Of a stretch of DNA of 64,000 bases, positions 13,477 to 33,399 are shown in pieces. Location of the stretch: the NCBI GenBank assembly GCA_950106755.1, contig OX467088.1, forward strand, positions 1,100,001-1,164,000, in the 5' to 3' direction. Position 1 is the stretch's first letter; the number at the start of each line of letters is the position of its first letter. The notes under the pieces are model-generated. The model made no database searches. It had not been told where the DNA came from and saw only the letters and a list, made by a program, of their open reading frames with translations. Source of the DNA: Climacium dendroides. Lineage: Eukaryota; Streptophyta; Bryopsida; Hypnales; Climaciaceae. The position numbers were made by a program, and so were the translations under genes.

Positions 13477-13511
13477 TTTAGGGTATAGGGTTTAGGGTTT
13501 AGGGTTTAGGG
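13477..13511 (+). repeat. interstitial plant telomeric repeat
   Basis: Five heptamers in a row: TTTAGGG, one variant TATAGGG, then three perfect TTTAGGG. It lies about 180 bases outside the GTCCG island of gene B1. Such short tracts occur as promoter telo-boxes and as traces of break repair; the sequence does not decide between them. Confidence 0.92.
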
Positions 13512-13689
13512 CATGGAGTTATTTTTCAAGTTTCACATTGAAGGGGCAAAATTCCCGCTGTCAGTTTTCAAAGTTTTTATGTCCTTACCTGAAGTTCATG
13601 ACGAACTAATGGTCTAACAGGCTGCCAGCTCACTCCTTTGGATTCTCTACTCACAAATAACTAAGTTTGGAGAATCCACAGGTCGTGGG

Positions 13690-13987
13690 CTGCCTGGCCA
13701 TCCGCTCGGCGGACACTGCGCCGACCAAGCGGTCGGCGAAAGCAACGACCCGTCTGCTGAGCGAATGGGCCGACAACCGATCGGTCGGGGCAGACGAAGT
13801 TCATCCGTCCGCCCATCCACCCGTCCGCTCTGCGGACGGCCCGACGGCCAAGCGGTCGGTGCGTCCATTCGACTCGGCCGTCCGTACGTCTCTGTCGACC
13901 GTGGGATGGGAGATGCAGATTCACGCTGTCCGTCTAATCTTGCCGTCCGACCCTCAAGCTGACAGCGACGTCTGCCTCGTCGGTCGG
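13690..13987 (+). promoter_or_regulatory. GTCCG/CGGAC CpG island upstream of gene B1
   Basis: A dense run of CGTCCG, CGGACGG, CGATCGGTCGG and related words interrupts AT-rich DNA and ends directly at a TATA box. Five other islands of the same vocabulary precede the other gene units of the 14-35 kb cluster. All three frames on both strands look open across it, but only because of low complexity. I infer a promoter-proximal island. Confidence 0.7.
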
Positions 13988-13995
13988 TATAAAAA
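13988..13995 (+). promoter_or_regulatory. TATA box of gene B1
   Basis: TATAAAAA lies at the 3' edge of the GTCCG island, 206 bases before the ATG at 14194. The region downstream (AATTGTTTCCCTTGCGGAGT near 14020) is conserved in gene B2, where TATAAAG is at 30792. Confidence 0.78.
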
Positions 13996-14984
13996 GCGGA
14001 GCGGACGGCTCATTTCGCACAATTGTTTCCCTTGCGGAGTGGGTGATCCAGTGGCTATTGGTCTCTGTGCACCCCTTTCGCCTTGGTGTGTGAACAATTG
14101 TGAATGAATGAGTGGTATTCACTAATTATTATAATCTGAAACCACTACACATTAATCATTCTAACATTGAGGTAATTTATAGAGAAGGGTACTATGCCTC
14201 GCAAAGGAATTCCGTTTCTTTCCGGTTCTTCGAAGAAAAGTTCGAAGGGGAAACCACAAGAACTAGATTGGGATGTTTACTTCGATGAATTCAATGTGGC
14301 GAAGGAGGGGTGGGAGTACGAGTCCGACAAAGTGTGGACTTGTACAATGTGCAAGAAATATGTGACCATGTCACACATAGCCAAACTGTGGCCAGCAAAT
14401 GACAGTTTGGAGAAGCAAGTGAGATGGTGGGAAGGCCCTATGAAGATGTGTACGAGTAGACACTTTGTAGAGAGATACGAAGAAATTTGGACAGCTTCAA
14501 ATCTAGGTCCCTCGAAGCCTACTATCATGAACTATTCTACCATGGCAATGGTTTGGGCGGAGATTGTACTCCAGAAAGACGTTGACTAGCGTACAGTTAT
14601 AGGGATGAATAAAGAGACGAAGATGACGTGTCACTCAGCTATGGTGTTTACTAACTAGCGTGGCGAAAGTGATTGCATGCCGTCTTGGTCAAACCGACAC
14701 TACAACAAAAGCAGTGTTTTATGACTGCAAAATATGACTGCAGTGAGTCGTAAAATCAAAAAATACGACTCACGCAGAAATCACTGTAGATGACTCGAAA
14801 TATGATTGACTCTAGTCGTTTAGAAGCAGTCGCTTCAGACATCAGTCATATTGGCAGTCATATTTTTCGAGGGGTATAAATACCCATTTTTAACCATAGT
14901 ATGCCAACATGGCATATACTTTGACTTTCCTAGGGAAGTCTTGACTTTTTCTTGAGTTGCCCAGGCAAACAAAAAAATCCTACG

Positions 14985-15465
14985 TGGAATATGACTATGG
15001 TCAGTCATATTTTTGGATGACGTGGAATATGACTGAAGTGAGTCATATTTTGCAGTGATGTAGAATACGACTCTCATCAGTCATATTTTATGGAATATGA
15101 CTGAGGTGAGTCATATTTTGTAGTAATGTAGAATACGACTCGTCAATCATATTTTATGAAATATGACTGAGGTGAGTCATATTTTGCAGTGATGTAGAAT
15201 ACAACTCTTGGCAGTCATATTTTATAAAATATGACTGAGATGAGTCATATTTTGCAGTGATGTAGAATATGACTTTTGTTAGTCATATTTTATGGAATAT
15301 GACTTCTATGAGTCATATTTTGTAGTGATGTAGAATACAATTCTTGGCAGTCATATTTTATGAAATATGACTGAGATGAGTCATATTTTGCAGTGATGTA
15401 GAATACGACTTTTGTCAGTCATATTTTATGGAATATGACTTCTGTGAGTCATATTTTTGGCTTCA
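14985..15465. repeat. tandem subterminal repeats of the CACTA element
   Basis: Repeats of about 60-67 bases, built from ATATGACT and AGTCATAT separated by TTTGCAGTGATGTAGAATACGA-like spacers, occur here at least seven times. The same AGTCATA words reappear at 16485-16600 beside the other end. In CACTA elements such subterminal motifs are the binding sites of the accessory transposition protein; that role is inferred here from position. Confidence 0.88.
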
Positions 15466-16138
15466 TGAAGTTGCAAGTAGCTTCCAATGTCTTTGTTTCA
15501 ACTTTTGATGCCTATATATACAATTAAAGAAATGAAAGGTTAGTTTTTAGTGATTGAACAACAAAGCCTAACCTTTAAAGACTTACAAAAACATAAAATA
15601 TTTAGCTTAAGTTTAGGATAGAAAGAATAAGATTAATGATGGAAGAAACAAGAAAAAGAAGATAAGTATTAAGAGTTAACAAGAATCAAAAGTTAAGATG
15701 CAACAAGGAATAAAAAACAACAACTAAGCAACAACTAAGACACAACAAGAAACAAGAAGCAACATAAAACAAGAAACAACAATTAAGACACAATATGAGG
15801 CAACAATTAAGACATAAGAACAAAGAAAAAGCAACAACTAAGACACAAGAAAAAACAAGAAGCACCAACTAAGACATAACAAGAAACAACAAGAAATGAG
15901 AGTATAGATACAACAAGAACAAAAAAGAAGCAAGAACTATAAAACAAGAGGAAACAAAAAAAAAGAACTAGGAAGAAGAAAGAGTTCAAATGCAAGAGAA
16001 AGAAAGAATTTAGATGCAACAATAAGAAACAAGAAGCATGAACTAGAGAGCAACAAGAAACAAGAGTTAAGATGCAACAAAAAGCAACAAGTGAGAGCTA
16101 AGAGACAATAAAAAGTAAGAAAGAAGAGCCACAAGAAG

Positions 16139-16285
16139 TGACGGCTAGGGTTTCAGAACCCTAAAAAGTGGCGGCTAGGGTTTCAAAACCCTAAAAAATG
16201 ACGGCTAGGGTCTCAAAACCCTAAAAAAGTGGTGACTAGGATTCAAAATCCAAAAAAGTAGGTGACTAGGATTTCAAAATTTTAA
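16139..16285. repeat. degenerate ~33-bp repeat with telo-box-like AACCCTA
   Basis: Four successive units of the form GTGGCGGCTAGGGTTTC followed by AAAACCCTAAAAA. Each unit contains a short AGGGTTT...AACCCT inverted repeat. It lies inside the CACTA element. Confidence 0.82.
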
Positions 16286-17310
16286 ACAATGACTTCTCTA
16301 TATTTTTTTGGAATTGCCCAAATTTTTCTTGAATTGCCCAAAACAAAAAAAAATCACTATTATATGAAAATATTAGTGATAATATGACTCAATGTTCCCA
16401 AACATGTTCCCTACGTTCCCTATGAAGTACTTTGGTATTCCTAATGGCCGTATAGTATACGCTTGTGACGTACAAGGCGTAAAAATGACTGACAGTCATA
16501 TTTTGCAGTCATATTTCTCCCCAAAGTGTTGGCCTTCAAGAATATGACTGCAAGCAGTCGCCAGTCATCCTCAGTCATAATTCTGCAGTCATAAAGCACT
16601 ACCATTGTTGTAGTGCGAGGTCAATTTGGGTGCCTAAGTTGGCCTATGCGGGATGCAGAGGACAGTGATGCTGACAATGATGAAGAACCAGCTAAACAGT
16701 TGCTACCTCCACCTCCACCTCCGGAGAGGCACGAACGCCAAGAAGAACGCGAAGACATAGAATATGAGAATCAAATGTGGGAAGCATTGAGGAGGAGTGT
16801 CGAGGATCAAGGCCGACCTCGTGGATATCACACTTCACCTCGTCGTGAATGTGATGTACATGGCTCGCGACATGGAGGAAGTAGTTCACACTATAGCAAT
16901 AACCCTCGAGATGGTGGTCCAAACGTAGAAGGAGGCTATAGAACTACGACCTATACGGACTACGGTGGTCTTTCACATGGCGGCCCTCAATATTACCCAA
17001 GAACAAGGGACCTCATGGAAACACTAGTTATACAGACTATGGTGGTTTGGAACAAAGCGGCTCGCGAAATTATCCGGGAACAGGAGGACATGATTTGTAT
17101 GGGCCTCATGGAAGTTCTTACTACACTGGTTCAAGTCATGGAGGGACTGGAAGTTCATATGAATATGCTTCAGTTCCACCTCCAACTTTTGGAGGTCCTT
17201 ATTACGAAAATTATGGACAAGGGCGACAATCAAGCAAATATGGGCCATATGGTGGCTTCGGTTCTACGCCTCAAAGTCAAAATCATGATAGTAGTTCTGA
17301 TTCTGAATGA

Positions 17311-18974
17311 AGTATAGTGTTATTTTGTAGAAAAATACAAGGTGCCATTATGTAGTTATGGGCTTTGTTTTTTAATGTGGTTTCAAGTGTAATGCATTGT
17401 CAATTTGTCATTTGCCATTTGGAAACAATGCAATAGTTGTAGGAATGCAAGTATATTCGAACAAGTGAGATGTATGAAGAACTTGTTTTAGCCCCCAAAA
17501 CGAAAGTGGTACAGGCTATAAGACTATTTTATAATATAATAAAATTATTTGCTTTTTACCTTGTAGAGTAAGTAGAGTTCCATACTATCACTCTAATATG
17601 AATGGTTAATTGTTGTAAGTGTTGAGTATGTGAATGATGTGGTGTAATGTATTTAAACATCGGAAGTTACGTATTTTGGTCATTTGTAATGAGTGTGTAC
17701 TAAAAACCATGAAAGTTACGTGCTTATATATAGAATTGCAAATGTACGGTTGTTTTTTGAGACAAAATGGTGTGACCAAATCATTTTTATAAAACCTTTG
17801 TCGAATAACTCAACACCTTTTGGTATGCACCAAAAGAAATTTCATTATGTAATTAGCTTTGATGTTGTACTTCCCAAATGCTATTTTAAGTATTGGACCT
17901 TCACAACAACAATTCAAGACTTATTCTTCTTCAGGTATTTAACACTAGAAGAGTAAAACAACAAGATATCTTGTTGTTGAAATTCATTGATGAAATGAAT
18001 TCGAGCTCTCTGGATATTGGATAGGCAAGAATATAATGTACAAGTAAAAAATTAAAAATTAAAACAAGTTGCAATTATTTTCCTACCTACTATGACCTAC
18101 TAGGCTACTACCTAGTGTAGTAGTGCCTACACTCCCCCCCGTCCCTTGTTTTGAGCAATTTAGGTCATAACTTCTATTCCCGGTCACTGATTGTGGAAAA
18201 AATGAGGTCTCCATTATCCCATATAGCTTAATAAGATTATCAATTTTTCCATCTTCAGAAAAAGTTTCAAAAAATCACGACAAAATTTCAAGTTGTAAGT
18301 ACCTACCTAATAACCCCTAAACCCTCGAAGGGACCCTAAGCCCTTTAGAAGTGAACCTTCAACTCACAATTAGGCACTCACATACAATCATACATTCATA
18401 CACGATGTTTCCTTCAGTCCTTTAGTTGCCCTCCATCGTCATATCAATTATAGAGACATAGAGGTAAGTAAACGCTTACCATTTTTTATATTGTCATTGA
18501 CATTATTATAATGAACATCTTCAATCACATTTACTATACCACACAAATGAAGACAAGGACTTGTCAACCTAACAATCAATGAATCAATGAATCATTGAAT
18601 CATCAATCATCAATTAAAAATTGAATGAATAAAGAATTGCAAATTATTTCATATAATGATTTCGAGATTTCCAATTTTCCATCCAAACATACGATGACAA
18701 ATGGCGTAAAGACCTCCAAGTTCTCCAAAATCATTGTGAATTAAAACATGCTCATTGATTACAAATGCTGAGATGCACCTTGCTGTAAAACAACATTCAC
18801 AATCAATCCAATCATTGGTGATGAAACTGAGGTATATCATCCGTATATACTGTACTACTATGTAATTGACATGTAACTTAGTATATGTCTTTGCCTCTAT
18901 AAATAGTGTATACTATAAACACCTATAGGCTATAGTTAATTACTTATATATGATATATTAATATCATTAAAGAC
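17311..18974. other. intergenic DNA between gene B1 and the kinase-like gene
   Basis: This is the shared 3' side of two convergent genes. It is AT-rich. 18544-18640 has degenerate (AATC)n-type repeats, and a C-rich run of nine lies near 18132. No gene or element end was recognised. Confidence 0.5.
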
Positions 18975-20471
18975 TTAAACTACAGCTCCAAAGTGGCGGA
19001 AGTGTTCATTTGGTATAGGCCAATGAAACGAAAAAGTAAATCGCGAAATCACTTGCGCCAAACTACTATGGCCATCGGGACCATCTTCGCAAAGTCTCTC
19101 CAAATACACTTGAAAGACTTGTGCTAAGTCGTGATGCGAGTACAACACATGTTTTTTGCTTCCACGACCTTGCAAACCATAGTATGTCTCTGACATACAT
19201 GTACTGTTGATTCTCTTCGCTATTTGACCAACAGCAAATTCTTCGGACTTAATGGTAAGTACGGGTATGTTCTCCACATCTGCATCTCTTCGATGTACGT
19301 ATGTAATCTTTGGATCGATCCACCACCTCCTCCTCAGAACTTCGTCCCGATCACTTGTTGATGTGAATGTATACAATGACTTCATGGGCTCTGTACTAGT
19401 TGTGGTCATCCCCCAATCGCAAATTCCAATGAAAACCTGCGACTCGTCTTCCGGAAAATGGAACATGATGTTGTCTGAAGAAATGTCGTTGTGAAGATGT
19501 CCGGCATCATGTACCGCATTCATAATATGCAGCAGTGCCCAAGCAAGCTCCGTACGCTTTGCTCTCCATTGCTTTAGACGATGAGCACGAATGACCTCCT
19601 CGTCGCTAATTTTGGAGTCACACATAATGCGTATGGCGATATTGTCTGGATAATCGTTATCCATTCTCAACATTTCACGCAAAGTACCACCATTCCACCA
19701 CAATGAATAGCCTTCGTTCCGATTTGCGTGGACTGCAACGAAGCGTATGACTCCATCGTGCGGAATCCGCACCGCCATCGATTCAGTTTGGTGTTCCATC
19801 TTTGCAAGCTCAGGTCGTCGATCCTCCTGGAAAGACATCTTTGTTACAAATTCCCAATGTGGTTGAAGTTCAGGGCACCCTTTGATTCGCACCCTACGAA
19901 TTATGGCATAGCCTCCGCGTAGGACAATATTATCTTGTGGAATCACCCTTGCGGTTCCCGGGAGCGCTATTAAATGGCGAAATACAACTCGCATGTTTAC
20001 TCTCCCTTCGTGAGTTGTCCACCAACTCATAAATCCACCTCTATTTCGTCTTGAAGCAAATGGTCTCATCCGACTCACGAACATGTCCACTTTTGTAATC
20101 GCGTGCGTGAAGGCTTCATCATCAATGCAATGAACCTTACCAAATTTTTCGACGGTCCCTTTCGCATTCCATAGTGCATCATGCGCCCGTTTGTCCAACC
20201 AACTAGTGAAATTTTTCTTTTCCATTTCTTGATACCACCCTCCCACCTGCAACGCTTCATGCATCATGTCTTTTATATTGCCTTTGAACTTCTCAATGCC
20301 CTCCTCTTGATAACGAACATACTTAGAGTCAAGAGACATGGTAGTTTCTCTCTCATAGAATTCAACAATGCATTTTCTCAAAAATGTGGTACAAGTGTGC
20401 GAGGGGTTGTCCATGATGTCAGCCTCAGTAGATTCCTCCACAAACTTCGTTTTCTTCTTTGCCCTTGGCAT
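18975..20471 (-). CDS. divergent protein-kinase-like gene (intact)
   Basis: A single 498-codon ORF with no interruption. I chose the Met at 20471 (MPRAKK) because the paralogue at 33400 starts the same way; an upstream in-frame Met at 20522 exists. Residues 1-180 match nothing I know. A kinase N-lobe follows: Gly-rich loop LRGGYAIIRRV (about 184-194), a VAIK-like FVTKMS with Lys at about 211, then IPHDGVIRFVAVH. The catalytic loop is GHLHNDISSDNIMF (Asp about 329, Asn about 334) and the metal-binding motif is DWG (about 352) in place of DFG. Lys, both Asp and Asn are present, so activity is possible. The C-terminus ends in a SFHWPIPNEHFRHFG block shared with the paralogue. The GTCCG island and TATA-like box lie upstream at 20649-21341. 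It could be a domesticated or host kinase, or cargo of a mobile element. Confidence 0.82.
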   Translation of the reverse strand: MPRAKKKTKFVEESTEADIMDNPSHTCTTFLRKCIVEFYERETTMSLDSKYVRYQEEGIEKFKGNIKDMMHEALQVGGWYQEMEKKNFTSWLDKRAHDALWNAKGTVEKFGKVHCIDDEAFTHAITKVDMFVSRMRPFASRRNRGGFMSWWTTHEGRVNMRVVFRHLIALPGTARVIPQDNIVLRGGYAIIRRVRIKGCPELQPHWEFVTKMSFQEDRRPELAKMEHQTESMAVRIPHDGVIRFVAVHANRNEGYSLWWNGGTLREMLRMDNDYPDNIAIRIMCDSKISDEEVIRAHRLKQWRAKRTELAWALLHIMNAVHDAGHLHNDISSDNIMFHFPEDESQVFIGICDWGMTTTSTEPMKSLYTFTSTSDRDEVLRRRWWIDPKITYVHRRDADVENIPVLTIKSEEFAVGQIAKRINSTCMSETYYGLQGRGSKKHVLYSHHDLAQVFQVYLERLCEDGPDGHSSLAQVISRFTFSFHWPIPNEHFRHFGAVV

Positions 20472-20629
20472 CTTGATGAATGTCGCACGATTCGAGAAAA
20501 AAAATGGCAAGGGTCCCCCCAAGATTTCACCTTTAACCTCCTGAGGAGAGGAAGCAATAGCCAGGGCCCAAAGGCACTAAGCTTCTCTGCTCTCTCTTGC
20601 AAGCAAGGGGGAAGGAAAAAGTGAGAGGC

Positions 20630-21341
20630 GAACGGCCCGACCGCCTCTTTTGTATGAGGCGGACGGCCATCCCGTCCGCCCAATCTCAGCCGTCCACCCT
20701 GGTGGACGGCCAATCGGGTGCCCCGTCGGGTCTGTCCGATTGGCTGTCCGATCGGACTGCTGACCGGTCGGACGGGCCACCCGATCAACCGACCGATCGG
20801 TCGGCCCCGTCCGCCTCGTCTGTCTACTCGGACGGACGTGGACCACGAACCGGACGAACGGGTCGGACGGGGCCGACCGAGTGGACAGACGAGGCGGACG
20901 GGTCGGCCCACGGCCCACGGCCCCGACCGCCCCGTGGTCTGTGTCCGTCCAGTCGGTCTGCCCCGTTCGACCCGTCTGGACAAACGTGGACCACGAACCG
21001 GACAAACGGGTCGGACGGGGCCGACCGAGTGGACGGACAAGGCGGACGGGTCGGACCACGGACCACGGCCTCGACCGCCCCGTGGTCCGTGTCCGTCCAG
21101 TCGGTCTGCCCCGTCTGCCCCGTCCGCCCCGTGCTCCGAGTCCGTCCGCTCGGTCTGCCCCGTCTGCCCCGTCCTCGTCGTTCGACCGCTCGGTCGGCTC
21201 ACTGAACCGACCGACCGACCGTCCACAGGACGGACGCGAGTCCGAAATTTCTATGTCCTCGGACGCTCAGAAACCCACGGACGCGGACGTTAGATGTCCG
21301 TTCGGACGTCCGGGCATCCCAGCGTCCGTGCAACCCTGATT
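20630..21341 (-). promoter_or_regulatory. GTCCG/CGGAC CpG island upstream of the kinase-like gene
   Basis: About 700 bases of CGGAC/GTCCG words, the longest of the islands. It contains two tandem 148-bp units (GACCACGAAC at 20841 and again at 20989). Its gene-side edge aligns with the edge of the island at 33208: a CCTCATA-TATA-type box, then GGCGGTCGGGCCGTTCGCC, then CTCTCACTTTTTCC and CTTGCAAGAGAGAGC. The far edge ends GTCCGTGCAACCCTG, similar to the edge of the orphan island at 42222. Long ORFs across it on both strands are low-complexity artefacts. Confidence 0.75.
20649..20656 (-). promoter_or_regulatory. degenerate TATA-like box of the kinase-like gene
   Basis: On the minus strand CCTCATACAAAAGAGGCGG aligns with CCTCATATAAGACAAGCGG of the plus-strand paralogue (33205-33223), so ATACAAAA stands where that copy has ATATAAGA. 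It lies 180 bases before the ATG at 20471, and 192 bases in the paralogue. Confidence 0.55.
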
Positions 21342-21380
21342 TGGCCCCTCCGATTCTTCTGAATCTACATTTTCAAGGTA

Positions 21381-23372
21381 CTACTTCTTCTCATCCTTCT
21401 CTTTGGATGCGGCCAACACTCTTGAATTAGTGTACACATACACCAAATCTGCAGCTCTCTTTGTTCTCAACTTGTTCCGAGATTTGTTGTGAACAAAAGA
21501 ATAGCTACTCCAATTCCGTTCACATGAAGATGAAGATACCGGTTGGCCCAATATTCTCCTTGCAATTGGAGCAATGAGCTTCCCACATGCGCCTTCAAAA
21601 TCCCACCAAGCGTATGCCGATAATTTTTGTTCACTTGGATCCAACATATTGTGGAAGGGAGGCTCCCTATATCGAAATGCCATGAATTCCTTGACGACGT
21701 CCGCGTAGTCTGTAGGTTTACATATTCGCATGAGAACACACTTGCATGCCTCGGTGGCCTCTGAATTGTCGGCTAGTTCTTTATCGTGCAAAAGATAGGG
21801 ATTCAAAAGTGCTCCTGCATATTGGAGATCGGTTTCTACCATTTCCCATCTAGCGTTGAACGCCTCCTTCAATGGTTTGGTAAGTTCGGGGCTCAATAGA
21901 AAAGGCGGATTTTCTAACCCCCCCACATGCGATCGTATCTTCCTCATAATATGCAAAACTTTCCCTGAACATGGCGTCTTTGCATCTAAATCACGAAGGC
22001 CATACACAACAACGCCCATCAACTGCACAAAATTCGTGCAACACCTCTAGAAATGCTCACTGTTTATTATCTTCTTTGTACACCGAGACTTTGTACGATT
22101 CTTCTTTTTCTTGTCGTCCAACGTCCTCACATATTGTTCCCAACGCGGATCTGTCACACTCTGCTGAAGTTCTCCCTTCACTTTCAATAAGCGTTCAAGC
22201 GCAATGAAATTTGAAGCAAATCTTGTTTCGCCTGGCATCAATAAGCTGTGCTCTTTTTCGTATGAACGAAATATTGCAAGCGGCATGTGCCGCTTTCTAA
22301 AAAACGTAAGAACCATATGAGCTTTGGCCACAACATCCGCCACCCATGCTTCCTTCCTCCAATCTCTTAGCAACAAATTCAAGGCGTGCACCACACAACC
22401 TTGAAAAGAAATGTGAGGATATTTGTTTTTTATGATTCTACATGCTCGAGGGTTTACAGGAGCATTGTCCGTTGTTATTTGCATCACATTATGTGGACCC
22501 ACCTCTTGTATGAATTTGTCCAAAATAGAGGCCAAGTACTCTACGCTTTTTACGAACCCACTTGTATCCACCGATCCCAAAAATTGCTCCCTTGCAGAAG
22601 ATACAAGCATGTAATTCACCAATGGCCGATTTGTAACCGAACTCCATCCATCAATAGACAATGTTGCTCCAAACTTTCTGATACTATCCTCGGTCCTCTT
22701 CTACAACTTTAGCTTGACATCTTCTTTCGCTTCTTCTAGTAATTTGGTTCGTAGAGCGTCGTACAATGGTGGGCTGTATGGCTTACCAAACTCAGCTGTT
22801 TTCTTCACTACTTCTTTGAAGGCCTCACTTCGAGCTACCGCAAATGGTATGTTGGCTGAATAGAAGAAATTGGCCCACATCGCATTCAAATTGCGTCTAT
22901 CAGCTTGTTCAAACCCATCTATTAGCCGACTTTATCTTCAGGACTGATTGATGGAAGAGGGTGGAGTTGGACATTGTTCACTTGATGTTTCCACACTTTG
23001 ATGTACCCTTGAAGACGCACGATGAATTTCAGACGGCGCTGCACACGAGTCCTCTTGTGTTGAACGTAAAAAATCCCTTCTATTTGAGGCATTGCTTGCA
23101 ACCCTCCCTATGTTTTCACCATCTACATTGTCAAGGGCCGATCTTTGTAGAAATAACCCATTACAACCGGCAAAAAGAGTTCGAATTGACAAAGTCAATT
23201 TTGGACATATGCTTACCCCCCTGTCGCGAACACCGTCTTTGCCTTCATATCCAAGGTGCCTCAATATGCGACACTTCCGATTTGCAAACACCAAGTCACA
23301 TGCCTTGCACTGCACTTTACCGCTTGATGGAACAACATAGCAACCGAAAAAATTGTGGAAAGCTCCGTTCAA
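21381..23372 (-). pseudogene. hAT transposase (BED finger, DUF659, hAT dimerisation), decayed
   Basis: One minus-strand frame of about 663 codons runs from the Met at 23372 to the stop at 21381. It is interrupted only by stops near 22940 and 22932, at 22701 and at 22047, with no frameshift. Domains in order: BED-type zinc finger (KVQCKACDLVFANRKCRILRH, residues about 19-40); DUF659-like core starting at LSIDGWSSVTNRPLVNYML with ITTDNAPVNPRACRIIK and CVVHALNLLLRDW; and the C-terminal hAT dimerisation region (PVSSSSCERNWSSYSFVH, then KLRTKRAADLVYVYTN). The acidic residues of the DUF659 part appear present. It would cut and paste hAT elements in the nucleus, but this copy cannot make a full protein. 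Element ends with 8-bp duplications were not found. A GTCCG island lies about 270 bases upstream. Confidence 0.9.
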
Positions 23373-23641
23373 GTTCCAATCTTGTCTTCAGTTCCAAATG
23401 TTTAGGTTCAAATCACCATGTCACATGTATCAAATATAGTCTGTAAGCAAAGTCTTGGAAACCAAAGCCCCCCTGTCCACTGAACTATGCATTACCAAGC
23501 AAGGGACATAAAGATTGCAGCTCCTAGCCCTTGGAAATCTTAGCGTTTAGTTTCTCAGAAGTGCTTGTAAATGCCTTCTTCCTTGCTCTTATAATCCTAA
23601 CTTGTTGAATGTTCTATGCCTTAGAAGTAACCGTTGCCAAC

Positions 23642-23832
23642 GGTCAGAAAACCCGGCGGACGGGGTGGGCGGACAGGGCGGACGGATGGTCGGTCGGGGC
23701 AGTCGAGGCAGATGGCAGGTCGGTCGGGGCAGTCGAGGCGGATGGGCGGGCGGACGGGGCGAACGGATGGGCGTGTATGTCGGATGGGTCAGACGGGTCA
23801 AACGGACGGTCGGGCGGACAGGGCAGTTTTAG
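23642..23832 (-). promoter_or_regulatory. GTCCG/CGGAC CpG island upstream of the hAT gene
   Basis: About 190 bases of GGCGGACGG, GGTCGGTCGGGGCAGTCGAGG and similar words, including a near-duplicate of about 33 bases (23690-23755). It stands 270 bases before the hAT start on the minus strand. I see no TATA box at its gene-side edge, unlike the B and kinase units. Confidence 0.65.
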
Positions 23833-23839
23833 CCTTTTA

Positions 23840-24429
23840 GGGTGGTCAATTTTACTTAGTTACTTCTTTACTTCAAACTTTTGGGCTCTTGGTTCAGTTG
23901 GTTGCATTCTATCCTAGGGATAACTAGATTACCAAAGTAGTAGAAAACAAGTGTTAAGTACTACAACAAAATTCTCAATCAAAGACACAATTCACTAAAA
24001 ACTGGGCATAACATGTACATTTCAATAAAACTTAGTCCAAGAAAATGAATTTTATGATAAAAACATTATATATATATATATATTCAAATAAACAAATAAT
24101 TACTTGCAACATGTTTTTCTTCACTACATGTATATGCAATACAAAAAAGTCATGATGGACATGGTGGGCCACGTACAATACTACTAGTCATAAAAAAAAT
24201 GAAGCCCACACTACATAATTATATCTTGAGTGCCATTAAAATACGACTACATAGGAAATTAAACATTTCACAATTACTTCAACACACTATTATCTTCTTC
24301 GGCATCACGAGATGTCCCCTCCCTCGCCATGAGTCTTCTACTTGTTCGACGAGGCACCGGTTGCGGACTATTTCCATGGCTGCTCCCTCCGCGGCTAGCT
24401 TGTACCTACATGTCAACCCTCTCAAATTG
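23840..24429. other. AT-rich intergenic DNA with a (TA)n microsatellite
   Basis: Non-coding DNA between the hAT island and the 3' end of the RING gene. A (TA)8 tract lies at about 24067-24082. Nothing else was recognised. Confidence 0.55.
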
Positions 24430-27400
24430 TCATTTGGTTTCCGAAGAGTGGTCATCCTCCTCTTCAATCTTTCGTTTATTCTTCTTCTTCGAAGACAGCT
24501 CCACTTCGTGGGCCCTCAAAGCCCTCACAGTACAATCTATGTCATCCATCAGTTGTTTTATCATTTCATCCTCGCTTTTCATCATCCAAGCTTGTTCGCC
24601 TCCCTCTCCTAGATACTTCCTCCACTTGGTAATAATGTCCTTCATATTCATGTCAAATGCCCTTACAACGTCTTCCATCTTATGCTCTATAGATGATTTA
24701 CCATTTAGGTCCACCACAGAACGAACTCTTGCTGCTTCTTCCAACTTCGACAAAATGAAGGCCCGTCCTATCAAATCCGTATTGTAGCCCGCAAATTGCT
24801 TTATGACTTTTGGATCATGCTCAACCTCCACCAAGAGGTCATTTGGACCCTCTCTCTTCCATTCCTTCTCGGGAATTTGAAAGAACTTTTGGTGCTGTGT
24901 GCTCCAATGTCCGCCCATGCTACGACAGAACAACTCTCGAGCCTTGTTGTTCTTAATCTCAAAGGCACGCAACTCAACCTCTACGTCAGATGTCATCCAA
25001 AAGAATTTATCTTTGGTGGAAAATGGGCCATCGCATAGCTCATATATTTGTGATCGAGCATCCCACTTCATTGGTTTCCCCCAATGCAAATAGTTCTGAA
25101 ATTTGTATGGCTTTTGGTCAAGTAGAAGGTTCCATCGATTGTATTTGTGCCTCGTATGCATACGGTACAAAATCCCTAGCATTTCATACAACCTTGCACT
25201 CAGAGGAATATGGCATTCGAGACAACGGTGTTGAAATTCTGCCGATCTTTGAATGCAAAACACATGGAATGTATGGCAACACTGACCCAATGCTATAGCT
25301 CCTTCGGGCCCAAAACAACCTTGGCAAAGAGAACAATGACCCTCCAAGATGGGAGTATTTGAAAAACTTCCTGGCATAAGCTTCTTCTCATGTTGCTGGA
25401 AGTGAGCTGACAACGTGCCATAAGGGATCTATCCTTCCTCCGCTTCCAAAGTCCAATCAATGTTCTCTGTATCATAGGTCTTTCCGTGGTTTAGCCACTC
25501 ATACATCCTATCCATGTTCCCCCAAACCGTAAGTTTTAAATCAGGGTCCTTTCTTTCCTCCTCCAACTTCTCCACAAAACGCTCATAAGAACTCTTGACA
25601 TTCTCGTATGCTATGTTCGATTGCAATGCATACCTCAAGAGCCCGTTCATGAGTCCGGATGATACTGAGGAATGATCTTGTAGTTGCCGCGCCCACACCA
25701 TCCACCATAAATCCGCATTTTCCTTTGGAAGGATTTCACTTAGTACCCCTACTTCCATCATTCGTTTCATTGTTGATTCGGCCTCATTCTTTCCTCGAAC
25801 TGCCAAGTCCAATTGATGCCTTAACTCTTCAACTTCCGGATTTTGTAATTGCATGGAAGCATCTTCAAATGAGGGGAAAACTATGGATTTTGGACTCGGA
25901 ATGCGCTGTCGAAGTTCTACGATCCCATCCTCAGCTTTGCCCTCGTCAAGAGGAAGAGATAGTTGATCGCTCTCTTGTGTTGGTTCACTTGCCTCTAATA
26001 GCCCTACTCCGCCAGGCGATTGTTGACCTGCCTTCTCGTTCTGTAATGTCCACAATGTTTTGCGATGCTCTTCTATCATCTCTTTGCATGTCTTCAACTC
26101 CAACACCAACTTCTCATTCATAGCCTTGAGATTCTCATTCATGGCCTTCAAATTATCATTCGTTCGCTTCAAAGTCTTGTTATTTTTCTTGACACTCTCA
26201 TAGTCATTACCCAAGGGCTTCAAGTTTGGGGTCGGCCTCCAATACAACGTGTTGTATTTGCTCTCCAATGTCTCATACTTTGCCTTGAGGTCATCATGAT
26301 CTTCTTTGGAGTAACGCACCTCCTTCAACTCCAAATTCTACTGTTCCAAAATTTTTTTATGCTTAAGGTCTTCCAACTTCTCGTCTTATAGTTTGTCCGC
26401 AAACTCGACAAACTTTCTGAAAGCCAAAGCACCATGAAGAACGGATGGTATCATTTTCGTAAATGTATCAGTTATTTGCGCAAGAGCAGGCGTCAATACA
26501 ACCACAACTCTAGCTGTACATGATAGAGAATACGCCGTTCTAAATATCTCGCCAAATCCTGATGTTGAATTGCCTGAAGTGGAGCTGCGTCCTTCATTTG
26601 TAGTGCCACCTTCATTAGGATTTCCTCCTACATGCTTAGGGCCACCTTCGTTTATAGTGCTCCCTTCATTTCCGCCATTTGTTGCTTCTCTCTAAATTTC
26701 AAATTGATTCCATCGGAGGGAACACTGCAACAAGTTCTCCATCTCTTCTAGTGGAGGCATCTTTTGTAGAGTCTTGAGATCCTCTGGGCTCAACAAAGCT
26801 AGCAATAGATGATCTTGAATAATCGGGGTCTCTTCGTCGTTGTTCACAGCAGCCTCGTCCCGAGAGTCCATCCTTACATCTGTTGGTTGAGTTGGATGCT
26901 CTTCATTTTGGTTTGGTGAAGTCCGAATTGCATTTTCAGGTCTGGACAGTAGGCTTGGTTTTTTCCTTGATTTAGGAGACGGAGGGACATAGAACATGAT
27001 GTCTTGTGTTGTGTTTGCTAAAAACCGGTCAATACAAGCGTAAGCCTCCTTTACATCTTGAATGTCTTCTCTATCTTCAATGTCTTTTATAGGATCTTCT
27101 TCTTGGAGCTTTTGTAACATCGATGTAGATCCATGTTCTGTTGGTCGAGGGAGCTTCATTGCAATGTTGCTTTCTGGCACCCCTTCCAACACGTTTTGTG
27201 TAGGGTTCAAATCCGTCGGTGGAGTCAAAAACACCTCTCCCTCCACACCGTCCACAGGACAAGTGCTTCCTTTTGTGGGGTCCCCCATACAAGCCGGTTC
27301 TACCGCCATTTTCTTTCCATTCAGCACTTCTGTACGACGCACTTGGATTTCAAGAGGGATCTGAATTGATTCCACAGCGTCCTCTAATGCTTTCTTTTTT

Positions 27401-27900
27401 TCACTTGCTTCAGGAAGTTGCGCCTTCGGAACAAACATATCAGGGATATGTTTCTGATGTCTGCCAATCGCAAGTGGCAATGTCGCTATCGTAGGATACG
27501 TACTCCAATCCACCTGACAGCCCAGTATGAGTTCAGCGTAAACCATGCCTGCCAAGCTGTAGTTAATTTTGCCCTTGCTCATAGCCTTCTCTGGAAATAA
27601 GGCCTTCCACACCTCCATCGAACGGTGCACAAAATGATCATTGAGGCAATTCAATGGTTTAAAACAATATTCACGGGTGTGAAGAGGGTGACACTCTTGA
27701 GGCCACAACTTCCCAATGTGGTACATTTTCACGTATTTGCGGCACAATTTAGAGGTCCAATACTCCACATCCTCTTTCTCCCAACCCGTCTCAGCCTTGA
27801 TGTTGACGTCATCCAAAATGTCAAACCGTAGCTTATGACCAAAGCCCTTCGATTTTGACTTCTTCTTGCCTTCAGTTGCAGCACTACTTGCCCCCGCCAT
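24430..27900 (-). pseudogene. RING-H2 / coiled-coil gene with the B-type N-terminal domain
   Basis: A single minus-strand frame of 1157 codons runs from the ATG at 27900 to TGA at 24430-24432. It is cut only by TAG 26692-26694, TAA 26386-26388, TAG 26338-26340 and TAG 25429-25431. Residues about 20-130 match the N-terminal domain of B1/B2 (LCRKYVKMYHIGKLWP, INYSLAGMVYAELILG, QVDW). A long polar, probably disordered part follows, then a coiled coil with KAMNENLKAMNEKL-type heptads near 26200. A clear RING-H2 finger lies at about 25335-25206: C-x2-C-x14-C-x-H-x2-H-x2-C-x10-C-x2-C. A Lys-rich tail ends the protein. RING-H2 fingers usually act as E3 ubiquitin ligases. The four stops fit Gln or Arg codons changed by C-to-T. 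If all four are real it is a pseudogene; exon structure could in principle skip some of them. Confidence 0.8.
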
Positions 27901-28159
27901 GACTGCTTGAGTGTCGAGTATTCACTTGCAATTTTAGAATGGAAATTTCCAATATATAATCCCCGTTCTCTCAAAATATATAATGTGCTTCACTGTCTCC
28001 AAACGTATGTAAGTAACCAAGGACCAAAATCCAATGTAGTATGATCAAAATATGACCCCCACTCTTCACCACATAGGAGCAACTAGCGCGTGAAGCAATA
28101 GTAGCACATCCGACATAGCAGTGATTCCCAAATGGAAGAGTGAAAGTGAGGAAATGTGT
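27901..28159 (-). promoter_or_regulatory. 5' flank of the RING gene with TATA-like boxes
   Basis: On the minus strand GATTATATATTGG (about 27946-27958) lies roughly 50 bases before the ATG, and another ATTATATATTTTG is near 27978. Either could set transcription start. They lie in AT-rich DNA between the GTCCG island and the ATG, so unlike B1, B2 and the kinase genes the island does not abut the box. Confidence 0.45.
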
Positions 28160-28380
28160 ATTAGCCATCCGCCAATATACCCGTCCGCTTCCAGACCTAA
28201 AAGAGGCCCGGGACCGGACTTGTCTCGGACCACGCGGATGTGGCCCGAGCCGGCGGACGGAGCTGCCCCATCTGCTGCTGAAGCGGCCAGCCGGCCCGGG
28301 CGGACAAAGCTGCCCCATCTGCCGCCGAAGCGGACGACCCGATTGCGTCCGACCGCCCCATCCGCCCCGTCTGCCTAGCC
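28160..28380 (-). promoter_or_regulatory. GTCCG/CGGAC CpG island upstream of the RING gene
   Basis: About 220 bases of CpG-rich sequence with CCGTCCGC, GCGGACGG and repeated CTGCCCCATCTGC units (28263 and 28309). It is 260 bases upstream of the ATG at 27900 and points the same way as the other islands relative to its gene. Confidence 0.65.
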
Positions 28381-28592
28381 CGTCGCCTATTATTTCAAGG
28401 CGTCCAAATTTTTTCCAATTTGGCATGAGACCTAGGATTCTTCTCGTCCGCCTTTACTTACTATCAGTTTTTTTGGGTCAATTAAAGTTTCAGCATCCTA
28501 TGCTTTTGTCATTAACCCAGAAAATCAGAAATAGACAAGTTATAATCAGATTTTAAATAATCATTTAGAGTTTTTTGAAGTTTACAGTGAGA

Positions 28593-28619
28593 CCCTAAAC
28601 CCTAGAACCCTAGAACCCT
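28593..28619 (-). repeat. degenerate telomeric repeat beyond the RING-gene island
   Basis: CCCTAAA is followed by CCCTAGA and further CCCTAGA/CCCTC variants. It lies about 210 bases outside the island, which is nearly the same layout as the telomeric tract outside the B1 island (13477-13511). Confidence 0.7.
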
Positions 28620-29215
28620 CAACTCTTAGTCTCCTACATTTCAGATTACGCCATTGTTTTGAGCAAATTGTAAATTTGTAATATTCATTTGAAATTGTAT
28701 GCATACAAATTTTAACTAGACATAAAGGATATTATTTATTTATTTATTTTTTCATCATGTAGGATATTTCAAAGGGAAAGAAAAAAACAAGAACATGATC
28801 AATATTAGTGATGAAGTGAAACGTTATAATTTACATTTGACCAAATTGAGATGGTGCTACAATCACAACAATTACTTGAAGGGGTTTGGTTTTGGTTTTG
28901 GTTTTGAACCTCATGGACAATTTCCATTGACTTCAAGGTGTTTTGTACATATGGACTTATAGAGAAGCCAAAAATCTATATAACTTATGCATGTCACACA
29001 CTGCAATGCCATGTTTGTACTGTATTTTGTAATGCCCTTTTTTGATTATTTAGGATTGTTTTAAAAGTAAGGGTATACAAAGAGTGTAAAACTTCACAAC
29101 ATTTCTGAAATTAGTAGAACTGTAAAATCCTTACTCATTGTGAAAAGCATTATAATCTTCTAATCCATAAAAAATATGTTTTTGTGTGTGTTTTTTTGTT
29201 TTTTGTTTTGTTTTG

Positions 29216-29246
<31 letters not shown>

Positions 29247-30205
29247 CTTAGAGATTTTGCAACGTGAAGTAATAAAAAAAATTTTAGTTTCTATTTGTAT
29301 AAGTTCTTCTTTTATCTAAGGCTGGGTTTATACTGTGCCTAAGACCGGATGAAAGTCCAGCCGGATTTGCCTTCGATCCATTCTTCAATCCGGCCCTAGT
29401 TTTTTCCATCCGGCCCTACTTAATCTAAACCCCTTGGGCCGGATTTTCAATTCATATGCTCTTCGATTTTATCAAGGCTCAATTAAAAAACGTCAATAAA
29501 AATATGCATGTTTATCTTTTATTTCTTTTTTAATTAAAAACAAAGATTTTTTTCATTTTTTTCATTTTTCTTTTTGTTTCTATACATTTTATTTCTAAAA
29601 TACAAAAAGAAGTTTATTTATTTATTACTTAAAAATAAAATAAAACTTTAATATTTTGGTTTTCCTCTTATATAGAATATGCATTTGTAATCAACATGTT
29701 GAATGCTAAAACATAGGTACTTTATTGTAGTCACTTAGATGATTTTCCTTTAAAATTAAATAAAGTAAATTCATAAGGGAGTTGCTCTAAGAACACCCGT
29801 GCTCTAAGAGTGATCATGACGGAGAGGTACATTTTGCTTTAGTGAATGTACTAGCACATTTTAGGACATGGTCACTTTTAATGACTGTTGCCTTTCAACT
29901 TAAAAAAATTCATAACTAATTACAGAAAGATTTAAAAAATATGAAAGAAATCAAGTCACCAAAAAAATATGAGGATAAAGGGCCTAACGTGCATTTCAAA
30001 ATCTACTCTACAATTTTTGAAATGAATCTTTAATGTGGTTTTTTCTCCAAGAGTTAGTGTATTTGAGGCTCATTTCCAAAAGCCCTCAACACTATGAAAG
30101 TCAAGTTTGTGATGGAAACTCTTGTACAAAATCTTGAATAAGAAAATTATAATCAATCATTTAGAAAATTGGATTTTTGATGCTAAAGTTAGATTTAGAA
30201 TAGAC

Positions 30206-30241
<36 letters not shown>

Positions 30242-30534
30242 CTAAGAATAGCAACTTGGTTAAGTATTATTAGACTTAGAATCTCTATTCTCATAGATAA
30301 TTTTCTTTCTTATTTAGTATTTAGGAAGCTTTAATTCATTTAATTAGGATTTGTTATGAGATTTCAATTTGTTTTCATCAATTTTTTTTGAGATTTCAAC
30401 TTATGTCCTGTTATAAATTCTGAAAATTTCACTACATGCCATATTTATTTTATTTTTTAATTAATTTTTAACAAATCTGACTTGAGTATAGGGTATTCCA
30501 AGTGATGAACTTCAATGTGTATAAGAATGGCCCA
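28620..30534. other. AT-rich intergenic DNA with microsatellites
   Basis: No gene was found. It holds (TA)n tracts at about 29217-29239 and 30209-30235, (TATT)n near 28730, and GGTTTTGGTTTTGGTTTTG at 28888. 29340-29450 has several GCCGGAT/ATCCGGC words. The segment near 30050-30100 (GTATTTGAGGCTCATTTCC) recurs inverted at about 41256-41286, so part of this spacer is dispersed repeat. Confidence 0.5.
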
Positions 30535-30539
30535 TTCAC

Positions 30540-30791
30540 CGTCGGCTCGTCCGCCCGTTCGCCGTCCACCGTCCGTTGTCCGTCCTCCCGTCCGCTGTCC
30601 GTCCGCTATCCGTCCGCTATCCGTCCGACCGTCCGCCGACTGCTGTCCGTCCGTGGGCTTCGTCCGATGTAGTCGTTCGCAGTTCATCGAGGCCGTGCGA
30701 TTAGACGCGCCGGGGCATATTACCCGTCCGATCTGGCGGTCGGCCCGTCCGCCCGTCGGATTTGGGCAGTGATGTCAGCATCGGCGGACGG
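30540..30791 (+). promoter_or_regulatory. GTCCG/CGGAC CpG island upstream of gene B2
   Basis: Repeated CCGTCCG and CTGTCCGTCCG words, ending directly at the TATA box at 30792. The gene-side sequence after the box aligns with the B1 promoter (GTTGTTTCCCTTGCGGAGT), which shows that island, box and leader are one conserved unit. Confidence 0.72.
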
Positions 30792-30798
30792 TATAAAG
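30792..30798 (+). promoter_or_regulatory. TATA box of gene B2
   Basis: TATAAAG at the 3' edge of the GTCCG island, 222 bases before the ATG at 31014. It aligns with TATAAAAA at 13988 of gene B1. Confidence 0.78.
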
Positions 30799-31013
30799 AG
30801 GGGCGCGAACGGCCCATTCCACACAGTTGTTTCCCTTGCGGAGTAGGCAGATCCAGTGCCAATTGGTATCTGTGAGCCCCTTCCGACTTGGAGCGTGAAC
30901 AACTGTGAATGAATTAACTTAATTTTTTGTAATCTCTTCATCACCTTCTCAATTATAGAAATTGTAAACTTCTCACTCAAACATTGCATTCGGTGCGGAA
31001 AAGAAGGATTACC

Positions 31014-32118
31014 ATGGCTCCAAAAGGATTTCCCAATGCGCTGAAGAAGAGTACAAAGGGAAAATCACAAGACATGGATTGGGACGCCTACTTCAACTAC
31101 TTTTGTGTGGCTGAAGAGGGATGGCAATACGAGCCCAAAGTAGTATGGACTTGCACAACGTGCTGAGAGTATGTGAAAATGTCACACATTGCGAAACTTT
31201 GGCCAGCAGATAACACGGTTGTATTGGAGAGACAAGTGAGACGGTGGGAAGGTCCCATGAACACTTGCAAGAGTGAACATTTCAAGCAGAGATACGAGGA
31301 GATTTGGGCATCTTGTGGTCTAGGTGCTTCCAAACCAAATATCATGAACTATTCCACCATGGCAATGATTTGGGCGGAGATTGTACTCCAGAAAGATGTG
31401 GATTGGCGTACGGTGCCTGCAAAGGATAAGAAGACCAAATTGAGCAGTGACAGCGGTGATAGACACCAATTGGGTTGGCCCAAGCGATTGCCTGCCGAAG
31501 TGGTCTAATCGTGGTCAATTTGGATTTCCTCCGGAACCATTGCCAGATGCAGAGGACAATGATGATGATGACGAAGAAGACTTACCACCTCCACCTCCAC
31601 TTCCACAAAGGCACGAACGTCGAGAAGAGCGTGAAGACTTGGACTTCCAAAATCAATTGCGAGAGGCAACAAAAAATAGTATTTTTGATCAAGGTCGCCC
31701 GCGTCAACAACGGTCACCACCTCGTCATGATCGTGATGTGCGTTGCCCGCAATATGGAGGAGGAAGTTTGCATGTTAGCCCTGGCCCCCACGATGACTTC
31801 CAAAATATACGAGGAAGCCATGGAAGCACAAGGTTCACGGACTATGGTGGATCTCAATATGGTGGGTTGCAATTCTATCCGGGGACGGGAGGGCCGGACT
31901 CATATGGGCCTCACGGAAGCTCATACTACACCGGCTCAAGCGAATGAGGGACAAGAGGGTCCAAGGCAAATGCATCACCTCCTCCACCTCCACCATTTGG
32001 AGGTCCATACTTCTCCGATTACGGACAAGGAGGAGGGTCTGGCGGATATGGGTGATCTGGTGGCTTCGGTCCCACCCCCCAAGGTCGAAATGACAATAGT
32101 AGTTCGGATTCAGAATAG
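31014..32118 (+). pseudogene. gene B2, paralogue of B1 without the CACTA insertion
   Basis: The ATG at 31014 begins MAPKGFPNALKKSTKGKSQ. The shared domain follows (VWTCTTC, KMSHIAKLWPADN, HFKQRYEEIWA, IMNYSTMAMIWAEIVLQKDVDW). A TGA at 31164 stands where the RING gene has Arg. A frameshift lies near 31440, after which the frame of 31447-31947 carries NWVGPSDCLPKWSNRGQFGF, the acidic/Pro-rich linker and the Gly/Tyr/Ser-rich tail (TDYGGSQYGGLQFYPGTGG). Further TGA codons occur at 31945 and near 32056, and it ends SSSDSE at 32116-32118. It shows what B1 looked like before its Trp codons became stops and before the CACTA insertion. The product and role are unknown. Confidence 0.78.
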
Positions 32119-32949
32119 AGTATAATGTAGTTTAACTATTTAAGGGTAGAGTAGAAGATGTCTTTTGACTTATTCGGAGGTTATGGATTTACTATTATTG
32201 TTTAAATGTATTTTGGTGACCACTTTTGTGACCATTAGTGGTCAAGGATGTCACTATTTAAAACTTTGAACATGCACATCCATTGAACATGTTTAGTTGT
32301 AGTACCAAAAATCTCTTCTTGGAAATGCTTGATAGTGTTTTTTCTTTTTTAGATTTAGTGCAAGGATACCGAATGCAATGTTGACTTTCTGTATTCTTTA
32401 CCTGCTCTTGGAAGTTGGAAATGAAATTGAAATGCAATTAGTTCTGGAGAATAAATTAAAATCCAAATTCATTTGGAAGAATTGTATAATAGTATTGTGG
32501 ATTTTGATTAGCCCTAATGTAATTGGGCTTATACACATTAAGCCTTCCAATTTTCCATGTCACGAAGTTCATAGGTTTGACTTGCAAAAAATATTTGAAC
32601 TCTTTTTTGCAATTTGAACAGCCTCATAGGTAAACATTATAATTTTTAACTCCATAAGGGATATTGTTGTGCTTTCTTTTTTTCCATAATGTCTAGCATG
32701 TCTAGTTTGAATTTGTACGGTTAAAAACTTGAAATTCCACGAAAATGATAAATGTAATGAAAATATTGACATTTCTTCAGAAGTAAAAATTTCAAGAAAT
32801 TGAAGGAGGTTGAGAAGAAGCCTTGGGTCTATTTTTTAATTATTAGGCATTGAAATGCCCAAATGCCCAATTCCTCCCAAACAAGAAGACCTACATGAAG
32901 CTTATTGAATGAAAAGGGGGAAAAATCACCCTAAAAATGAGACGGTAGA
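32119..32949. other. intergenic DNA; part is a dispersed repeat
   Basis: No gene was found. About 32560-32880 is homologous in the same orientation to about 41430-41790 (for example GATATTGTTGTGCTTTC and TCTAGTTTGAATTTGTA). Both copies stand just upstream of a GTCCG island, so the conserved unit extends several hundred bases beyond the islands. Confidence 0.6.
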
Positions 32950-33207
32950 AATGAAGCGGACGATCTAGCCATCGCCCCCTCTGGACTGTCCGATCACGCA
33001 GACTGCCCGATCGGACGAGCCAGAGGGGGCGCATAGCCACCCCGTCCGCCCGATCAGACGGGCCAGAGGGGGCGGACGGCCACTTCGTCCGCCCGATCGG
33101 ACGGCCTCTGTTCGACCGTGTGGACCGGATGAGGCACCCGCCAACCCTAGACCATCCGATCGGACGGCCTTCGTCCGCTGTAGGACTAGAATGAGGCCGT
33201 CCGCCTC
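32950..33207 (+). promoter_or_regulatory. GTCCG/CGGAC CpG island upstream of the second kinase-like gene
   Basis: It includes three copies of a ~64-bp unit containing CCAGAGGGGGCG and GTCCGCCCGATCGGACGG (33008-33105). The CGATCGGACGG words are partly palindromic. The gene-side edge is conserved with the minus-strand kinase island. Confidence 0.74.
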
Positions 33208-33215
33208 ATATAAGA
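33208..33215 (+). promoter_or_regulatory. TATA box of the second kinase-like gene
   Basis: ATATAAGA followed by CAAGCGGACGGACCGTCCGC and CTCTCACTTTTG, 192 bases before the ATG at 33400. The same order is found in the minus-strand copy. Confidence 0.74.
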
Positions 33216-33399
33216 CAAGCGGACGGACCGTCCGCTCTCACTTTTGCCTTCCCCCTTGCATGCAAGAGAGAGCGGAGAGCTTGGTGGTTTGACCTCCAAT
33301 GGCTCCTTTTTTTGGGTGGGTAAGAGTCTAATATTTGGGGTAACTCTTGCCAAATTTTTTATAAAACTTTGACGTTCATCATTCTATCGGGTTATCAAC

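Follow-up and report, generated by a model that had tools for sequence, protein, structure and literature searches.

In the Spm/CACTA elements, the element protein TnpA binds subterminal repeats that adjoin the promoter, and CACTA elements carry CACTA ends and create a 3-bp duplication. The element addressed here belongs to another superfamily, with CAGGG ends and a duplication of 8 bp. Like the maize hAT elements Ac/Ds, it has this 8-bp target duplication, short terminal inverted repeats and internally deleted derivatives, as well as multiple short CGG-containing repeats near its ends, which are transposase-bound in Ac and are putative sites here (PMC3260210). The Ac transposase binds multiple AAACGG repeats within the terminal 200 bp (PMC3260210), and many hAT-derived proteins prefer CGG or CGC (PMC8097297). 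However, Ac measures 4.6 kb and makes one transcript of 3.8 kb (PMC3260210), whereas the element described here is 17.4 kb, with four genes and with arrays before its internal genes as well. The hAT element Hermes likewise has subterminal repeats, which are putative BED-domain binding sites, but their motif is AAGT, and the available text on Hermes mentions no kinase or RING gene (PMC10368747). Giant cargo-carrying eukaryotic transposons, such as Starships and terminons, are also large and bear accessory genes (PMC6431247, PMC12506042), although they use other enzymes (PMC6431247). The terms hAT, kinase and moss are absent from the accessible text of the 2019 review of giant transposons (PMC6431247), and a search by title and start of abstract, with subscription journals mostly outside its coverage, found no description of a hAT element with several genes in mosses.

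Two nested copies of a four-gene hAT element

In the window (the whole 64,000-nt stretch analysed), the gene cluster is a large DNA transposon of the hAT superfamily with several genes, present as one copy nested inside another; the host genome is that of a moss-like plant. One complete copy of its subfamily I, which lies in another part of the genome, measures 17,429 bp and has four genes, CAGGGTTG ends and an 8-bp target duplication; its RING, hAT and A genes read rightwards in that order, followed by K reading leftwards. Subfamily II has the same four gene families in a different order. In the window, the right part of one subfamily I copy (E1) sits inside the hAT gene belonging to a subfamily II copy (E2); together they have six genes and six islands of GTCCG/CGGAC words.

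11613..21338, + strand: E1, right part of a subfamily I element; copies L064 and L066 match from 11613, and copies share the right end at 21338
13690..13987, + strand: island before E1 gene A, ending at TATAAAAAG
14194..14586, + strand: E1 gene A, conserved first part, with further coding stretches beyond the insert
14698..16615, no strand: 1.9 kb insert in the window copy of gene A
18978..20471, - strand: E1 gene K, kinase-like, 498 aa
20630..21338, - strand: island before E1 gene K, which is also the right terminal region of E1
21331..21338, - strand: right end of E1, CAGGGTTG reading inward
21340..42219, no strand: E2, subfamily II (hAT and RING leftwards, A2 and K2 rightwards), hAT gene cut by E1; right limit probable
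21381..23387, - strand: E2 hAT transposase gene, 3' part lost; DUF659 and hAT dimerisation domain above cut-off
23642..23832, - strand: island before the E2 hAT gene
24430..27903, - strand: E2 RING gene, with A-like start, coiled coil and RING-H2; three ORFs here
28160..28380, - strand: island before the E2 RING gene
30540..30791, + strand: island before gene A2, ending at TATAAAGA
31014..32128, + strand: E2 gene A2, carrying an in-frame stop
32950..33207, + strand: island before gene K2, ending at TATAAGA
33400..34884, + strand: gene K2, kinase-like, ORF split by an in-frame stop
42050..42219, no strand: seventh island, no gene behind, CAGGGTT end (reading inward)

As one of two readings, the preliminary description had proposed the subterminal part of a mobile carrier that moves with different cargo. 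Its mobility is borne out by many dispersed copies (93-97% identity), a common right end and a target duplication. Among 37 separate terminal pieces, 36 stop within query positions 3338-3346, and 19 of them exactly at 3339, which is window position 21338. All five right ends that were fetched read GTGCAACCCTG and then enter five different flanks. The left-end 15-mers predicted from the right flanks of two copies had one match each in 412.6 Mb, on the expected contig, strand and place, and both subfamily I copies tested carry the 8-bp duplication, one of them read directly at the left end. In the C2 copy, the terminal inverted repeats are perfect over 8 bp (CAGGGTTG/CAACCCTG) and alike at 10 of 20 positions overall. 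An apparent left edge shared by L064 and L066 had suggested an element devoid of inverted ends, an idea dropped once the true left end was found; L064 is merely interrupted at that edge, because L068 and L070 still match L066 past it. The cargo part of the proposal fails, given that the four genes have relatives in both subfamilies.

The left arm of the element contains the RING and hAT genes; in E1 it is absent from 11612 leftwards, and a scan of the window for the expected duplication with CAGGGTT found no left end. The 1.9 kb insert in gene A has no match in 29 other A loci. For subfamily II, hAT continues into RING in 27 of 29 loci, and on to A2 in 4 of 4 samples, and copies support the contiguity of E2 as far as 31.3 kb. 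We infer that K2 and the end at 42219 also belong to E2, the CAGGGTT there being its probable right end.

The islands and their words

Islands were called in the 64,000-nt window at a threshold of at least 5 GTCCG/CGGAC words per 300 bp. The window contains 172 such words, with 78 inside the six islands (1,932 bp combined), a density of 4.04 per 100 bp versus 0.15 elsewhere. Peak counts in the islands run from 6 to 18 words per 300 bp, while 100 first-order Markov simulations gave a top 300-bp count of 5 and a mean of maxima of 3.2. Among 30 strand-paired permutations of the pentamer, GTCCG/CGGAC is the commonest in the islands (78), followed by CGGTC/GACCG (31). The six islands first noticed are real, their peaks exceeding the Markov maximum.

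It had also been claimed that six of six gene units directly follow an island. All six islands do lie 5' of a gene in the orientation claimed, but a seventh clear island at 41871-42590 (peak 9, core 42050-42219) precedes no gene and ends at CAGGGTT. It passes the same threshold, and the tally is therefore six of seven clear islands. A weak, overlapping run peaks at 5, equal to the simulated maximum. Islands with no obvious gene behind them occur at 42.05-42.22 kb of the window and at 1480-1940 of L066, and the stretch before the hAT gene in the C2 copy is word-poor, with 3 words in 300 bp and a peak of 4 per 300 bp, below threshold. The six islands are not six independent cases, as all are parts of the same kind of mobile element, present here as two nested copies.

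The distances from island to ATG are 207, 159, 257, 223 and 193 bp in window order, leaving out the hAT gene, the start codon of which is not fixed. The leaders, from TATA box to ATG, can be aligned only between orthologous genes (z 64 and 36), and the islands have short words in common but no alignable sequence. A promoter role of the islands is supported by sequence, through their position, the leaders alignable up to the TATA box, and the TATAAAAAG at the end of the A island, which is kept in 29 of 29 A-region copies. The four islands said to end at a TATA-like box reduce to two homologous pairs, and the box before K1 (gene K of E1) reads TACAAAAG rather than TATA.

The term CpG island, in the sense of a methylation-free promoter, is not supported. 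CpG decay among copies (CpG to TpG/CpA) is 6.5% inside versus 5.7% outside the island for A1, and 6.6% versus 4.0% for hAT. As decay inside is at least as high as outside, nothing here shows a methylation-free island. CpG changes are slightly commoner in the words of the A1 island than in the rest (7.3% versus 6.8%), and somewhat rarer in those of the hAT island (7.4% versus 10.1%). Strong purifying selection on each word is not supported by these rates; single words show little or no constraint and are not clearly protected.

The four genes

The open reading frames had been taken as mostly unrelated to one another, but they are less so than claimed. The genes at 14.2 and 31.0 kb are homologs (67% aa), as are the kinases at 20.5 and 33.4 kb (55% aa), and the start of the 27.9 kb gene shares a domain with both the 14.2 and 31.0 kb genes (E about 1e-18). 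The 27.9 kb ORF and the one labelled RING-H2 form a single gene in another copy. In all 7 comparisons, which together span the four genes, conservation is lowest at codon position 3; this shows codon-level constraint on each gene.

The transposase has hAT domains: the 922-aa ORF of L036 scores 124.1 bits for DUF659 (cut-off 34.7) and 33.4 bits for Dimer_Tnp_hAT (cut-off 21.4), and L074 scores 124.0 bits for DUF659. By eye, its N-terminus has a CxxC...H...C pattern like a BED zinc finger, with no Pfam report of BED. Gene K is predicted to have a kinase fold with conserved catalytic residues. Its AlphaFold model (pLDDT 85.4, pTM 0.67) matches 1,579 PDB chains at E <= 0.001, the best being kinases (TM about 0.6, by target length), and the catalytic-type residues K211, E230, D329, N334 and D352 do not vary across 34 rows, made up of the query plus 33 of 56 matches; the Pfam Pkinase score is 24.6 bits, under the cut-off of 31.7. 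For the RING gene, the L074 relative reaches 34.2 bits for RING-H2 PF13639 (cut-off 27.3), and the window copy scores below cut-off only. No relative of the RING protein appeared at E <= 0.001 among the 7,997 scored candidates listed, which says little. The A domain has no PDB match at E <= 0.001, and zf-C3HC scores 20.2 bits, under its cut-off of 22.2.

Arrays at promoters and ends

Each of the four genes would have its own promoter, mostly a CGGAC/GTCCG-rich array of 190-710 bp ending at a TATA box or its equivalent. The islands are most likely fast-changing arrays of putative binding sites, which may serve as promoters and, at the ends of the element, as subterminal repeats as well. The RING and K genes lie outermost in subfamily I and begin near its two ends, which would also place their arrays in the stretches of subterminal repeats that hAT transposases bind; word arrays do occur at both ends of this subfamily, the left-end sequence itself being rich in GGACGT/CGGAC words. 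An element protein, either the transposase or protein A, may bind the words and thereby couple transposition to the expression of the four genes. We are highly confident of one mobile unit with four genes, its ends, its 8-bp duplication, codon-level constraint, and words in common among islands that cannot be aligned. That an element protein binds the words has about even chances, and the explanation as a whole (two nested four-gene hAT transposons with word arrays as promoters and ends, with binding and coupling) appears reasonably probable. Weighing against it are the single words with no clear protection, the word-poor stretch before the C2 hAT gene, the two islands with no obvious gene, the BED finger that Pfam did not report, and the scan of the window that found no E1 left end. 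A further reading is offered tentatively, with doubts outweighing belief: a four-gene regulon, where one element-encoded CGG-binding protein would read a single word, arrayed both at the ends and before the genes, so that a kinase and a RING-type ligase would be expressed under joint control with transposition. These two would then serve the life cycle of the element, for example against silencing or in setting the transposase level, instead of being passenger cargo.

The strongest alternative, though an unlikely one, is that a host factor reads the word in promoters, the overlap with the element ends being incidental and unused by the transposase. Most islands do sit just upstream of genes, and in subfamily II the RING island lies inside the element, with 2 kb separating it from the next island. 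However, the outermost subfamily I islands reach the word-rich ends, and the 42 kb island terminates at CAGGGTT with no gene behind it. Somewhat less probable is that the islands are GC-rich simple-sequence tracts, expanding by slippage and decaying, with no function beyond the adjoining core promoters. Such tracts would suit islands that evolve several times faster than their flanks, with indels, that contain tandem units of 7-148 bp, and whose single words show little or no constraint; they would also suit the K islands, which vary in length among copies, that of E1 being longer than in most copies scored. Yet identical words turn up before different genes, and across two subfamilies with non-aligning islands, which counts against slippage because slippage of unrelated seeds does not predict it. 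Lastly, a single mobile promoter or subterminal module placed before different, unrelated cargo genes would account for similar word content before different genes, but it is rejected as very improbable, since ortholog islands are themselves unalignable and no more alike than islands of different genes (both kinds of pair barely exceed shuffles), and the same four gene families occur in both subfamilies; of the shared promoter module first proposed, the promoter role survives and the moved module does not.

Ac, as a known hAT element, has a single transcript, and here a hAT-type element adds kinase-like, RING-H2 and A genes. Relatives of these genes have been kept under codon-level constraint in two subfamilies of differing gene order, which fits core functions and not captured fragments. 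If the arrays do link ends and promoters, this transposon would possess a gene network of its own, and the evolution of such a network could be tested with the many copies of the element as natural replicates.

Islands and their carrier

The preliminary description had placed six gene units each directly behind an island rich in the words GTCCG/CGGAC, and had proposed a shared promoter module or a mobile carrier. Word counts and Markov simulations place these six islands, which belong to two nested transposon copies, far from chance:

11613-21338, E1, right part of a subfamily I element (genes A1 and kinase-like K1)
21340 to probably 42219, E2, subfamily II element (genes hAT, RING, A2 and probably K2)
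13690-13987, island
20630-21341, island
23642-23832, island
28160-28380, island
30540-30791, island
32950-33207, island

The six islands cover 1,932 of 64,000 bp and hold 78 of the 172 words, a density of 4.04 per 100 bp against 0.15 elsewhere in the window. Their peaks reach 6 to 18 words per 300 bp, while the best of 100 Markov simulations reached 5. In the same scan a further clear island, the seventh, appeared at 42 kb, which brings the tally to six of seven; a weak overlapping run only equals the simulation level.

The genome (412.6 Mb, 123 contigs) was searched for both parts of E1. The A region (13963-14597) matched in 40 of 40 scored candidates at 95-100% identity (window included; 384 candidates in the first look). 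The stretch 18000-21345 also matched in 40 of 40 (699 in the first look), each time from the first query base, and gene K and the region 3' of gene A therefore belong together; several of these places keep a constant spacing to A-region places. The window and a copy on contig C2 match throughout, and 37 of the 38 other copies have a separate terminal piece. By manual count, 36 of these 37 pieces end at query 3338-3346, 19 of them exactly at 3339 (window 21338), and the remaining one at 3321. At the right end, all five fetched copies read GTGCAACCCTG, followed by five different flanks. The islands belong to one mobile unit, not six.

Gene order and ends of the two subfamilies

Left of the A region, and on its strand, the C2 copy carries a gene with an A-like start, a coiled coil and a RING-H2 domain (PF13639, 34.2 bits against a cut-off of 27.3). 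Also present on this strand are a stretch of high GC content and a transposase of the hAT type (DUF659, 124.0 bits). The GC-rich stretch before hAT is word-poor (3 in 300 bp). After the hAT tail, and before gene A, lies one more island, built of tandem units (L066 1480-1940; 460 bp holding 21 words) and followed by no long ORF. The genes of subfamily I thus stand in the order RING-> hAT-> A-> <-K.

On its right the C2 copy is flanked by DNA that starts with CATTCACC; a hAT element would then have CATTCACC and CAGGGTT in succession at its left end. The genome contains this 15-mer a single time, at C2:49717943. In the fetched sequence the ends form an 8-bp perfect inverted repeat, CAGGGTTG, adjoined by words such as GGACGTCCGGAC; the element is 17,429 bp long, its left end lying about 505 bp upstream of the RING start codon. 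For the C41 copy, the second of the two scored in this way, the prediction (GTCCAAAA) had a single genome match, C41:1798651, giving about 17,404 bp.

In subfamily II, the hAT region (21381-23832) was scored at 40 places (366 candidates). Homology runs from hAT through its island into RING, reaching at least 25.2 kb, at 27 of 29 other loci, and stops near 23.8 kb at L051 and L056. At L056 it stops because another sequence, beginning CAGGGTTGC, starts there (from about 4010), within the subfamily II copy at the position of window 23841. No CGGAC array was found near the end of that sequence, which is thus probably of a different element family. Additionally, 28786-29026 and 30869-31303 matched at 94-99% (four samples from two copies, at positions predicted from the window order). 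With the homology across loci, this joins hAT, RING, the AT-rich spacer and A2 into a single element. K2 and the right end at 42219 probably belong to E2 too, judging by order, by CAGGGTT at 42219 and by shared AT-rich pieces. The right flank of this probable end, 42220-42244, matches 37643-37666 in inverted orientation (79% of 24 nt), within the gag-like ORF at 37.5-38.0 kb; the target into which E2 inserted may thus have been a related repeat.

Nested and decayed copies

At 21339/21340 the hAT sequence continues in 29 of 29 other hAT loci, but in the window E1 has its right end there. In our reading E1 has inserted into the E2 hAT gene, and only one side of this event is visible. The match of E1 to its copies stops at 11613, left of which lie repeats resembling retroelements; the window does not contain the remaining half of E2's hAT gene. 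On C39, the right flank of another subfamily I copy (L065, C39:2163478 onward) is similar to the island before A2 in subfamily II (around window 30690-30800), and this copy thus seems to lie inside a subfamily II element. This second case perhaps reflects a target preference.

The window copies are decayed: gene A carries a 1.9 kb insert, A2 and K2 contain stops and the RING frame is broken. Elsewhere, in L006 and L026, A and K are joined by their 5' parts, as expected of copies with internal deletions.

Short telomere-like tracts (TTTAGGG at 13477-13511, which fits a plant, and ACCCTAGA at 28592-28619) lie in AT-rich stretches upstream of two islands. Long charged ORFs, gag-like in look, at 9480-11223, 37463-38047 and 57521-60138 are probably LTR retroelements; the one tested, 57521-58630, gave no domain above cut-off.

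Conserved genes and changing islands

In each of seven codon alignments, which together cover the four genes, the third position is the least conserved. At E <= 0.001 the kinase-like ORF has 56 relatives; those from named plants are Ceratodon purpureus proteins (47% and 40% identity, the second representing 126 member sequences), and they suggest a moss-like genome. One relative, P0005 (478 aa), is assigned to a Bacilli bacterium metagenome bin and is more likely plant contamination. Among the query and 33 of the 56 hits, K211, E230, D329, N334 and D352 are invariant, in our reading the catalytic residues, and the protein model has a predicted kinase fold. The A domain conserves Cys, His and Trp, with no match among solved folds.

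Orthologs have leaders, the stretches between TATA box and ATG, that align strongly (A1-A2, z 64; K1-K2, z 36); those of A1 and K2 hardly align (z 2.2). Pairs of islands reach z 2.9 to 6.4, and orthologs (4.5, 3.3, 2.9) score no higher than non-orthologs (6.4, 5.2, 3.1); the islands thus have words in common but no alignable ancestry. When copies within one subfamily are compared, minor bases amount to 3-6% in the A1 island against about 1-3% in its surroundings, and to as much as 11-15% in the hAT island against about 1%, with indels. CpG decay inside the islands is not reduced. The A1 island gives its single words no protection, and the hAT island protects them only somewhat. All 29 of 29 copies retain TATAAAAAG, although the flank rate would predict no more than about three changes there. 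A serious rival is that islands arise by slippage, without function. The pattern best fits a redundant, fast-changing array of putative binding sites.

The element is a four-gene transposon of the hAT type, and word arrays lie both at its ends and in front of its genes. In this superfamily, Ac transposase binds repeated AAACGG motifs within the terminal 200 bp (PMC3260210), Hermes has subterminal repeats that are putatively BED-bound (PMC10368747), and many hAT-derived proteins prefer CGG or CGC (PMC8097297). Arrays of putative binding sites may likewise be bound by an element protein, and such binding would tie transposition to the expression of the four genes.
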